From Pseudomonadota bacterium (GTDB taxonomy: Bacteria; Pseudomonadota; Gammaproteobacteria; Acidiferrobacterales; Acidiferrobacteraceae): a stretch of DNA of 41,356 bases. The notes beneath the pieces were generated by a model. The model was not told the origin of the DNA. It worked only from the letters and a program-made list of their open reading frames with translations, and did not search any database. Shown here in pieces: positions 3,003 to 5,615 of this stretch (positions are counted from its first letter, which is position 1; every line of letters begins with the position of its first letter). Position numbers and translations under genes: made by a program. The stretch spans positions 1-41,356 of the forward strand of contig JAKAXM010000018.1 of NCBI GenBank assembly GCA_021816625.1, written 5' to 3'.

Positions 3003-3292
3003 GCCCGCATAGCTCAGCTGGTAGAGCATCTGATTTGTAAAATTGCACCTGTCCGGGGAAACTCAGACAGTGGAGATGGCTAAAACGGGGAAACCTTACG
3101 GACCGCGTCCCTGGCAATCCCGTGCTAGCCGCGCGAGCGGCGAGTGTAGAGACTTTACACCATCCACCTAAACCGCCGCAGTCCAGGCGGCAGGGTGAAG
3201 AGAAAGTCCAGACCCCAAACCCCTCGCGGGGGCTGCGAAAGCAGTAGCGGGTATGAATCAGAGGGTCGGGGGTTCAAATCCCTCTGCGGGCT
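3003..3292 (+). tRNA. thrU: tRNA-Thr(UGU), split by a group I intron
   Basis: The exons are 3003-3038 and 3256-3292. Joined, they give a 73-nt cloverleaf: acceptor GCCCGCA/TGCGGGC, D arm GCTC/GAGC, anticodon arm TCTGA/TCAGA with loop TTTGTAA (anticodon TGT at 3036-3038), five-base variable loop, T arm GGGGG/CCCTC with TTCAAAT, and discriminator T at 3292. CCA is not encoded. The gene corresponds by order to E. coli thrU. Intron insertion falls right after anticodon base 36, which ends in U as group I splicing requires. Without splicing the anticodon arm cannot form properly, so the gene depends on intron removal. Confidence 0.93.
3039..3255 (+). ncRNA. Group I self-splicing intron (Azoarcus-like, IC3 type)
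   Basis: This 217-nt insertion in the anticodon loop has no room for a homing endonuclease. Visible elements: guide GCA at 3045-3047 pairs with the exon anticodon UGU, giving the required U-G pair at the splice site (P1); P2 CTGTC/GACAG (3049-3053/3066-3070) capped by GAAA; P3 GTGG-ATGG/CCATCCAC (3070-3079/3160-3167); P4 ACGGG/CCCGT (3085-3089/3119-3123); P5 GGAC/GTCC; P6 GCCGC/GCGGC with a GCGA loop; P7 GACTTT/AAAGTC (3151-3156/3203-3208); P8 CCGCC/GGCGG (3173-3177/3186-3190); P9 hairpins, one CTGC-GAAA-GCAG. Terminal G at 3255 is omega-G. From memory, the blocks GAAACC, GTGTAGAGACT, CCACCTAA, GGTGAAG and AGTCCAG also occur in order in the 205-nt Azoarcus tRNA-Ile intron. Confidence 0.93.
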
Positions 3293-3341
3293 ATCTATTC
3301 CGGTCGACCCCCGGCGGGGCGGCCCTTCAGAGACCATGTTC

Positions 3342-5615
3342 ATGGAAAAATTTCCGGCTGACGCCGAAAACGGCGCGCTCGCTTACTATGCGGGACTTGC
3401 GGATCGTCTGAGGGCGATCCGAGACCGCGTGCAGCGGCCACTTTCTCTGGCTGAGAAGATCCTGTATGCGCATTGGGTGGATCGGGGGACCCTCCCGGTC
3501 CCCGGTGTCAGCACCGAGGCCTTCCATCCGGATCGCGTGGCCATGCAGGATGCCACGGCGCAAATGGCCCTTTTGCAGTTCATGAGCGCGGGCCGCCCTG
3601 AGGTTGCGGTGCCCACCACAGTCCATTGTGATCACCTGATCCGCGCCCATGTCGGGGCGCGCGCGGATCTAGCGGTGGCGGAGGCCAGCAATGCCGAGGT
3701 CTACGCCTTCTTGTCTTCGGTATCGGCCAAATACGGCATCGGATTCTGGCAGCCCGGCTCGGGCATCATCCATCAGGTGGTCTTGGAGCATTACGCCTTT
3801 CCGGGCGGCTTGGTGATCGGTACGGACTCCCATACCCCCAATGCCGGTGGCCTTGGGATGCTCGCGATCGGCGTGGGTGGGGCGGACGCGGTCGATGTCC
3901 TGGTCGGCATGCCTTGGGAGCTGCAGTGGCCGAAATTGATCGGTGTGCGGCTGGTGGGCGCGCTCTCGGGATGGGCGAGCGGCAAGGATGTGATCCTAAA
4001 GCTTGCCGGTCTGCTTACGACGAGCGGCGGGACCGGCCATATCATCGAGTATTTTGGGCCGGGAACCGCCGCGCTCAGTGCCACGGCCAAGGCGACGATC
4101 ACCAATATGGGGGCCGAGCTGGGGGCCACCACCTCGGTCTTCCCGTTCGATGAGCGTATGGCCGTTTATCTCGAAAAGACCGGCCGACCGCGTCTTGCGC
4201 AGCAGGCCCGCGCGCTCGCGGCCCACTTGACCGCCGACGCCGAGGTCGCCGCCCATCCCGAGGACTACTTCGACCGGGTCATCACTATTGATCTCGCGAG
4301 CCTCGAGCCGCATGTCGTGGGACCCCATACCCCCGATCTCGCGCGGCCGGTATCGGCATTGGCCGACGCGGTACGGGAGCACGCCTATCCGGAAGCCTTG
4401 CAGGCGGCCTTGATCGGCAGCTGCACGAATTCCTCTTACGAGGACATCGGCCGTGCCGCCCATGTCGCGCGCCAGGCCCGTGCGCGGGGCCTCAAGGCCC
4501 GCGTGCCGTTTCTCGTGACGCCCGGGTCCGAGCAGGTGCGGGCCACCATAGAGCGCGACGGCCTGCTCGCCGATCTGACCGCCATCGGGGCCTCGGTGCT
4601 CGCCAATGCCTGCGGTCCGTGCATAGGCCAATGGGATCGGGACGGCGCCACGCCGGGTGCCAGCAATAGCATCCTGACCTCGTATAACCGGAATTTTCCG
4701 CGCCGTAACGACGGCAATCCGGGTACCCATGCCTTTATCGCAAGCCCTGAACTCGTCACGGCCTATGCGCTTACCGGTTCCCTTACGGATAATCCGCTAG
4801 ATGGGGTCAAGGTCGACGGTGAGGTCGTGTTTTTGACGCCGCCGGTGGCCGAAGAACTCCCCACCGCGGGCTTTGTGACCGAGGCCGGCGGCTATACGCC
4901 TCCCCGGGAGGACCGCGATGCGGTGGCCGTCGCCATCCGGCCGGATAGCGAAAGGTTGAGCCTCCTTGAGCCCTTTCCGGCGCCCGCGGCCGCGGATTTT
5001 CAGGGGCTGCCCATCCTGCTCAAGGCGGTCGGCAAATGCACGACCGATCACATATCGGCGGCCGGCCCCTGGCTGCGTTACCGCGGTCATCTCGACAAGA
5101 TCAGCGACAACCTATTCTTGGGGGCCACCAACGCCTGCAGCGATACAGTCGGGACCGGTCTCGATGTCCTGACGGGCGAGTCCGGCGTGGCACTGCCCGT
5201 CCTCGCCCGGCGCTACCATGCCCAAAGGCAGGGTTGGGTAGTGGTGGGGGACACCAATTACGGCGAAGGGAGCTCGCGCGAACACGCCGCCATGTCGCCC
5301 CGCTATCTGGGGGCCCGCCTGATCGTGGTGCGCAGCTTTGCCCGGATCCATGAGACCAATCTCAAAAAGCAGGGGGTCCTGCCGCTTACCTTTGCCAAGG
5401 CCGCCGACTACGAACGCCTAGGCTGCCGGGACCGGTTGAGTCTGCCCGATATCGCCCAGTTGCAGCCCGATACCCCACTGCGTGTGGTGGTTACGCCCCC
5501 TGAGGCCCCGTCCTGGGAGTTTTTGGCCCAACATACCCTGACCGCCGAACAGATCAATTGGTTCTGGGCCGGATCGGCCTTGAACCTCATGGGGGCCCGC
5601 GCCCGAGGCGTTTGA
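3342..5615 (+). CDS. Aconitate hydratase, mitochondrial type
   Basis: The 757-aa enzyme interconverts citrate and isocitrate through cis-aconitate in the TCA cycle, using a [4Fe-4S] cluster. The cluster ligands are Cys361 in GSCTNSS and Cys424/Cys427 in ACGPC. Other family blocks are VPTTVHCDHLI, GSGIIHQ, GTDSHTPNAGGLG, SYNRNF, KCTTDHISAAGPW and NYGEGSSREHAA. Residue for residue it follows animal mitochondrial aconitase rather than the AcnA/IRP1 or AcnB forms. The frame is open back to 3195, but that part lies inside the intron and tRNA-Thr. I chose ATG 3342, 8 nt behind CAGAGA; ATG 3336 is the alternative. It sits 49 nt behind tRNA-Thr with no clear terminator or promoter between, so co-transcription is likely. 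Its position inside a tRNA operon is unusual. Confidence 0.95.
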   Translation: MEKFPADAENGALAYYAGLADRLRAIRDRVQRPLSLAEKILYAHWVDRGTLPVPGVSTEAFHPDRVAMQDATAQMALLQFMSAGRPEVAVPTTVHCDHLIRAHVGARADLAVAEASNAEVYAFLSSVSAKYGIGFWQPGSGIIHQVVLEHYAFPGGLVIGTDSHTPNAGGLGMLAIGVGGADAVDVLVGMPWELQWPKLIGVRLVGALSGWASGKDVILKLAGLLTTSGGTGHIIEYFGPGTAALSATAKATITNMGAELGATTSVFPFDERMAVYLEKTGRPRLAQQARALAAHLTADAEVAAHPEDYFDRVITIDLASLEPHVVGPHTPDLARPVSALADAVREHAYPEALQAALIGSCTNSSYEDIGRAAHVARQARARGLKARVPFLVTPGSEQVRATIERDGLLADLTAIGASVLANACGPCIGQWDRDGATPGASNSILTSYNRNFPRRNDGNPGTHAFIASPELVTAYALTGSLTDNPLDGVKVDGEVVFLTPPVAEELPTAGFVTEAGGYTPPREDRDAVAVAIRPDSERLSLLEPFPAPAAADFQGLPILLKAVGKCTTDHISAAGPWLRYRGHLDKISDNLFLGATNACSDTVGTGLDVLTGESGVALPVLARRYHAQRQGWVVVGDTNYGEGSSREHAAMSPRYLGARLIVVRSFARIHETNLKKQGVLPLTFAKAADYERLGCRDRLSLPDIAQLQPDTPLRVVVTPPEAPSWEFLAQHTLTAEQINWFWAGSALNLMGARARGV

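Follow-up and report, generated by a model that had tools for sequence, protein, structure and literature searches.

Background

Compact group I introns of the IC3 type, such as that of the Azoarcus tRNA-Ile(CAU) gene, are small and ORF-less, reside in the anticodon loop, and are characterized by a short P1 helix with a U-G pair, GAAA-capped P2 and P9 hairpins, and a terminal omega-G. The intron described here, which splits a tRNA-Thr(UGU) gene at positions 3003-3292 of a 41,356-nt stretch of DNA (the window), resembles this type in those traits; it differs in its host tRNA, and the sampled tRNA-Ile(CAU) introns do not group with it. The tRNA-Leu(UAA) and tRNA-Arg(UCU) introns of gammaproteobacteria belong to the same class and have a common core with the window intron, but they are inserted after U34 (by reading), carry guides for CUU, and differ in P3 and J3/4. 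The tRNA-Thr(UGU) and tRNA-Tyr(GUA) introns of Clostridia share the GCA guide, the UGU target and the J3/4 sequence GCTAA, and the tRNA-Thr ones lie at the same site, whereas they are AT-rich, mostly have a longer P1 loop, and form separate clades in the broadest tree.

In published accounts, putative introns are described in the tRNA-Leu(UAA) and tRNA-Arg(UCU) genes of Beggiatoa and Thiomargarita (PMC4853749), 36 genomes are listed as missing tRNA-fMet or tRNA-Ile2 owing to introns (PMC8450103), and tRNAs with group I introns in metagenome-assembled genomes are presented as hard to detect (PMC8172020). A 2014 review states that introns of phages were so far known from protein-coding genes alone (PMC3984707). 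A 2025 intron database was assembled from Rfam hits and GenBank annotation (PMC11835236), and it may hold bacterial tRNA-Thr introns. No group I intron of a bacterial tRNA-Thr was found in the open-licence PMC literature, judged mostly from titles and the starts of abstracts, and the present element is a sound group I intron, of a known kind, in a host tRNA not found reported for bacteria. With it, tRNA-Thr(UGU) joins the set of bacterial tRNAs in which group I introns occur.

The locus is very probably explained by a compact, ORF-less group I intron that splits the genome's only detected tRNA-Thr(UGU) gene, would be spliced by way of a GCA guide, and belongs to a lineage shared with introns of phage-like contigs and of Clostridia, the origin being the less sure part of this reading.

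Gene structure and genomic context

The joined exons (73 nt) were identified by ARAGORN as tRNA-Thr(tgt) with a cloverleaf structure, and the insertion point was located directly after anticodon base U36, between bases 36 and 37 of the anticodon loop (Table 1). Five further genomes of the order (G021, G026, G028, G034 twice, and G042) have uninterrupted genes that were identical to the joined exons at 39 of the 39 bases reported by the pattern, which fixes the intron boundaries. The insertion after base 36 proposed in the earlier note is supported. The default tRNA scan of the window returned four other tRNAs and nothing at the split locus, and an intron-aware scan mislabelled the locus as tRNA-Tyr(gta).

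Upstream of the split tRNA, the window has genes whose products carry biotin-ligase, type III pantothenate kinase and SPOR domains; downstream lies an aconitase gene, followed by tRNA-Tyr, tRNA-Gly, tRNA-Thr(GGU) and EF-Tu genes. In genome L271, an intact tRNA-Thr gene sits in a Thr-Tyr-Gly-Thr tRNA row. The aconitase gene (3339-5615) separates tRNA-Thr(UGU) from tRNA-Tyr in the window, and the two adjoin directly in L271. CCA is absent from the tRNA-Thr(UGU) gene of the window (end 3292). Of the 15 further family members that were read (L002-L016), 14 likewise do not encode it and L016 does, while the tRNA-Gly, tRNA-Thr(GGU) and tRNA-Trp genes of the window encode CCA. A promoter and terminator scan found nothing.

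Table 1. Features of the split tRNA-Thr(UGU) gene and its intron (window coordinates)
Feature	Position	Strand	Basis
5' exon of tRNA-Thr(UGU), last base U36	3003..3038	+	ARAGORN on joined exons; empty-site comparison
Anticodon UGU, forms the 5' strand of P1; splice-site U-G pair involves U3038	3036..3038	+	16/16 family members
Group I intron of 217 nt; no room for an endonuclease gene	3039..3255	+	Family pairing counts; model R2
AUU pairing with exon 2 bases 3256-3258 (P10)	3042..3044	+	Structure count; splice-site count
Internal guide GCA, 3' strand of P1, pairs with UGU 3036-3038	3045..3047	+	Structure count; splice-site count
P2 hairpin, GAAA loop (3058-3061)	3049..3070	+	Two-sided changes in 7/8 pairs
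P3 5' strand, partner 3160-3164	3075..3079	+	1 pair with two-sided change; 100% paired
P4 (3085-3090 with 3118-3123) around P5 (3094-3095 with 3113-3114)	3085..3123	+	Invariant within family
P6 and P6a (3128-3131 with 3138-3141)	3124..3145	+	Two-sided changes in 2 P6a pairs
P7 5' strand, partner 3204-3208 (guanosine-binding helix)	3151..3155	+	Paired in 16/16 and 17/17 rows; invariant
P8 domain (3166-3168 with 3194-3196) and variable inner helix	3166..3196	+	Family and 17-intron counts
P9 region: 3212-3215 with 3249-3252, two inner hairpins, the second with GAAA loop (3237-3240)	3212..3252	+	Two-sided changes
Omega-G, last intron base	3255	+	16/16 family members; model R2 match ends here
3' exon of tRNA-Thr(UGU), A37 to discriminator U73, no CCA encoded	3256..3292	+	ARAGORN on joined exons

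Intron structure and covariance models

Helices P1-P9, including P7, and P10 were drawn by hand on the window sequence and then counted over 16 family members. Pairing was retained in 98.7% of 878 cells, compared with 35-40% when the partners were slid, and two-sided changes were observed in 12 of 55 pairs, a number reached in 0 of 500 shuffles (shuffled mean 5.8). P1, P4, P5, P7, P8, P10, the P9-closing helix and the last P9 hairpin are invariant within the family, and covariation there is uninformative either way. Over a set of 17 introns that includes those of tRNA-Leu and tRNA-fMet, two-sided changes were counted in 11 of 29 pairs (P4, P5, P8 and three helices of the P9 region; none in P6 or P7), and the Leu and fMet introns have U-A where the window intron has an A-U pair in P4. 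The splice-site features were constant in all 16 family introns: a 5' exon ending in UGU, the guide GCA, the U-G pair at the splice site, a terminal G, and a P10 of three or four pairs. The window intron had a folding z of -2.5.

A model built from 19 related introns, R2, matched the window intron with 127 bits (E 3.5e-34; 3084-3255) and nothing else in the window up to E 1; none of the 19 comes from the window family, and they were found by searches partly seeded with it. The Rfam model RF00028 (Intron_gpI) gave 21 bits against a gathering cut-off of 50 (E 0.003 on 401 nt), and the Rfam check suggested in the earlier note fell short of that cut-off; nothing was found at gathering level, and there was no match genome-wide at E 0.001. 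When eight related loci were searched with RF00028, L149 passed the cut-off (85 bits), L021 scored 42.5 bits, and three Clostridial tRNA-Thr loci, one tRNA-Tyr, one tRNA-Arg(UCU) and one sister tRNA-Thr locus had no match at E 0.01. The RF00028 cut-off serves for detection and does not define group I introns, and because the model made from related tRNA introns scores the window intron strongly, the low Rfam score looks like the poor reach of one general model. A silent default tRNA finder, an intron-aware finder that says tRNA-Tyr and a sub-cut-off Rfam score together show a blind spot of annotation at this locus.

Judged from its sequence, 3039-3255 is a group I intron, with a P3-P9 core including P7, the conserved core segments, omega-G and P10 all present. 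The earlier note had drawn this anatomy, from P1 to P9 with a P7 helix, a GCA guide on UGU and an omega-G at 3255, and each of these elements stands in the counts and model match given above. Traits that would fit the IC3 type are also visible, namely small size, a short P5 without P5abc, and GAAA loops on P2 and P9. Archaeal-type protein splicing of the tRNA was set aside, as all group I parts are present. From this anatomy, the pre-tRNA would be expected to fold through P3-P9, and the guide GCA would pair with the anticodon UGU to form P1. A guanosine bound in P7 would then cut after U36, and U36, aligned by P10, would attack after omega-G to give an intact tRNA-Thr(UGU).

Distribution

Using blastn, the intron was found in 15 of 17 family relatives, with no match in G001 (92% complete) and G012 (77%), both of which also had no intact tRNA-Thr(UGU) by pattern. 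Model R1, built partly from the window family, detected it in 16 of 18 family genomes, its own included, and the 16 intron-bearing genomes of this family (f1) span three genera. R1 matches were obtained in 45 of 57 genomes of the order (E 0.001), in 52 of 369 sampled class genomes and 40 of 398 phylum genomes (1e-9), and in 8 of 341 genomes of one Clostridia class (1e-7; three in tRNA-Thr, three in tRNA-Tyr and two other). By exon reading, the hosts of R1 matches were mostly tRNA-Leu(UAA) and tRNA-Arg(UCU), together with tRNA-Ile(CAU), tRNA-fMet, tRNA-Arg(CCU), tRNA-Lys(UUU) and tRNA-Ser; no tRNA-Thr or tRNA-Tyr host occurred among 28 phylum loci read.

Named genomes were scanned for tRNA-Thr(UGU) exons 191-251 bases apart, which gave at least 80 loci. 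Among the 80 listed, at least 25 held an intron by filter (6 in the window family, 1 in family f124 and 18 in Clostridia), and the remaining listed loci look like tandem tRNAs. The window-family loci carried the title 'Proteobacteria bacterium' and came from isolates DBS1, YF and DS4. At least 18 Clostridia loci have the intron at the same tRNA-Thr(UGU) site with the guide region TTGCACC, and another search added two sequences. In the gammaproteobacterial family f124 (L149, L150), a tRNA-Thr(UGU) intron with guide GCAA and a different body occupies the same site. Group I introns were also noted in apparent tRNA-Lys(UUU) genes of family f102 (L134, L141).

The GCA guide and related introns of viral contigs

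In three Clostridial loci (L280, L281, L282), tRNA-Tyr(GUA) is interrupted after U35 by a group I intron whose guide is GCAG. A 5' exon ending in UGU together with a GCA guide, forming four to six P1 pairs, was found in these three Clostridial tRNA-Tyr introns, four viral tRNA-Tyr introns (two of them near-duplicates) and six viral tRNA-Asn introns (L325, L330, L371, the second one in L338, L339 and L347), in a comparison that was not blind, as the script sought the UGU exon end and GCA. P10 in these Tyr and Asn introns ranged from 0 (L325, L330, L371) up to six pairs. In L160, L171 and L196 the script picked another GCA, and by eye they have the TTGCACC guide of the others. The ARAGORN label for L325, L330 and L371 is tRNA-Thr(tgt), with the loop split two bases earlier; they were read as tRNA-Asn(GUU) because that reading gives the U-G pair and P1. 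By reading, one guide and target (GCA on UGU) thus appear to serve tRNA-Thr, tRNA-Tyr and tRNA-Asn introns. Since GCA fits all three unchanged, hops among tRNA-Thr(UGU), tRNA-Tyr(GUA) and tRNA-Asn(GUU) would need no new guide, and the common guide offers a concrete, testable account of host change.

A search of IMG/VR with the J3/4-P4 pattern yielded 49 stretches, here called viral after the label of that collection. An intron inside a tRNA gene was read in 21 of the 49 (8 Leu, 6 Asn, 4 Tyr, 2 Lys and 1 Thr(UGU)), a count that includes near-duplicates (L337/L370, L342/L357) and several hosts identified by exon reading alone. The sole viral tRNA-Thr(UGU) intron, in L372, seemingly lies at another site, and some of the remaining stretches are in apparent protein genes. 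L372 seems to hold three introns and L338 two. An internal ORF resembling a PD-(D/E)XK endonuclease was seen by eye in L339, L340, L344 and L347, and related introns occur in apparent phage protein genes in L327, L328 and L329, with an HNH-like stretch upstream of the core in L327 (by eye). L351 adjoins a clamp-loader gene and a gene matching RCC and tail families; two L345 proteins had no match in PHROG. Blastn of the window intron gave no match among annotated phages and two weak core matches among plasmids, and none of the viral sequences scanned had the exact Thr-type 5' domain.

Relationships and origin

The broadest tree comprised 89 rows, 26 of them viral, and 161 columns, and its bootstrap had not settled. 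The viral rows were drawn from 27 of the 49 stretches, and the tree excludes eight of 97 matches (the near-duplicate L357, L339 with 72 bits, and six with 27-33 bits). The tree contained a 98/98 split, with cellular Leu, Ile, fMet, Arg(CCU), Lys and f124 Thr introns and two viral Leu introns on one side, and Arg(UCU), other viral, Clostridial and window-family introns on the other. The window family joined the viral tRNA-Leu introns L351, L345 and L364 with moderate support (90/84), in a comparison whose viral rows had been chosen by a pattern containing part of the core, which favours likeness. These nearest rows differ from the window intron in host, and L364 carries an HNH endonuclease ORF; L345 and L351 are identical to it across J3/4-P4. 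They also share with the window family the P4 variant AACGGGG...CCCGTG, which occurs as well in viral L353 and L362, placed elsewhere in the tree.

A tie of the window intron to phage-borne introns is plausible but unproven, and phage-like contigs with introns in their tRNA genes point to a possible vehicle. Tentatively, and with more doubt than confidence, a lineage of phage-tRNA introns, some with homing endonucleases, may settle where a bacterial anticodon loop contains UGU, with one copy fixed by the window family in its only tRNA-Thr(UGU) gene. Within the family, inheritance would have been vertical, although this too belongs to the less sure part of the reading.

It is rather unlikely that the family received a ready-made tRNA-Thr(UGU) intron, host unchanged, from Clostridia or from a shared source. 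The Clostridial loci with the same site and guide region speak for such a transfer, as does the 81-row tree without viral rows, in which the window family grouped with the Clostridial Thr/Tyr introns (84/89). The 69-row tree, with P2-P3 columns added, also joined them (24/86), and in the 71-row tree without viral rows they lay apart in the best tree with joining not rejected (p 0.448). With viral rows included, grouping with Clostridial Thr introns had an AU p of 0.15, and with Clostridial Thr plus Tyr of 0.14 (six groupings were tested in the broadest tree, p values uncorrected). Against the transfer stand the position of the family beside the three viral Leu introns in the broadest tree and the P4 variant held in common with two of them. 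Grouping of the window family with f124 gave p 0.0434 in the 71-row tree and 0.214 in the 69-row tree. A single origin of all tRNA-Thr introns, f124 included, was rejected as a candidate (AU p 0.0515 with 71 rows, 0.0486 with 69 rows and 0.0002 with 89 rows).

The earlier note had favoured an Azoarcus-type intron that reached another anticodon by changing its guide. Descent of the same intron from a resident proteobacterial tRNA-Leu(UAA) intron or an Azoarcus-like tRNA-Ile intron, moved to tRNA-Thr after a guide change, now appears improbable. The Leu and Thr introns have a common core, Leu introns are present in many genomes of the order, and the guide regions of the gammaproteobacterial Leu introns (ATTGAGCACC) and the window intron (ATTGCACC) differ at two bases, a difference that alone would turn a CUU guide into a UGU guide. 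Of three tests of a grouping with gammaproteobacterial Leu introns, the two on earlier trees that had no viral rows did not reject it (p 0.104 with 71 rows, 0.0575 with 69 rows), but it was disfavoured in the broadest tree (AU p 0.017, L102 and L103 left out), where grouping with the three sampled Ile(CAU) introns was rejected (p 0.0055; the Azoarcus intron is in no tree). Moreover, J3/4 is GCTAA in 27 of 27 Thr/Tyr introns of the window family and Clostridia, against 0 of the 42 other cellular rows of the set. A guide change may still have occurred if the family's intron came from a tRNA-Leu intron; a source already directed at UGU would not have required one.

Only detected copy and probable requirement for splicing

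The genome (2.19 Mb, 99.1% complete, 52 contigs) has 43 tRNA matches, among which ARAGORN gave GGU, CGU and CGU as the tRNA-Thr anticodons, with no UGU. The tRNA-Ala(UGC) and tRNA-Ile(GAU) genes were also absent, so the tRNA list of the draft is incomplete. By pattern, an intact tRNA-Thr(UGU) was found in 0 of 18 family genomes, one of which is a single 3.4-Mb contig with 99% completeness, compared with 21 of 39 other genomes of the order, a yield at which the pattern misses many genes. Likewise, the pattern found none in a further 12 genomes that carry a Thr intron (11 Clostridia and one f124; completeness not given). A second intact gene, which the earlier note had named as evidence that would count against its reading, was therefore not found in this draft genome. 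As no intact copy was detected and the intron is present in 16 of the 18 family genomes, reading of ACA probably depends on splicing. A dead tRNA gene, in which the insertion no longer splices and ACA is read by another tRNA, would accord with the low Rfam score but is barely credible against an invariant core and helices kept by paired changes in 16 genomes of three genera, with no other tRNA-Thr(UGU) found.

In G023 (L019), the remnant of a tRNA-Leu intron, truncated at its 5' end and still joined to its 3' exon, stands downstream of an uninterrupted tRNA-Leu(UAA) gene, as if a split gene had been replaced. The tRNA-Leu(UAA) and tRNA-Arg(UCU) genes of the window genome are uninterrupted.
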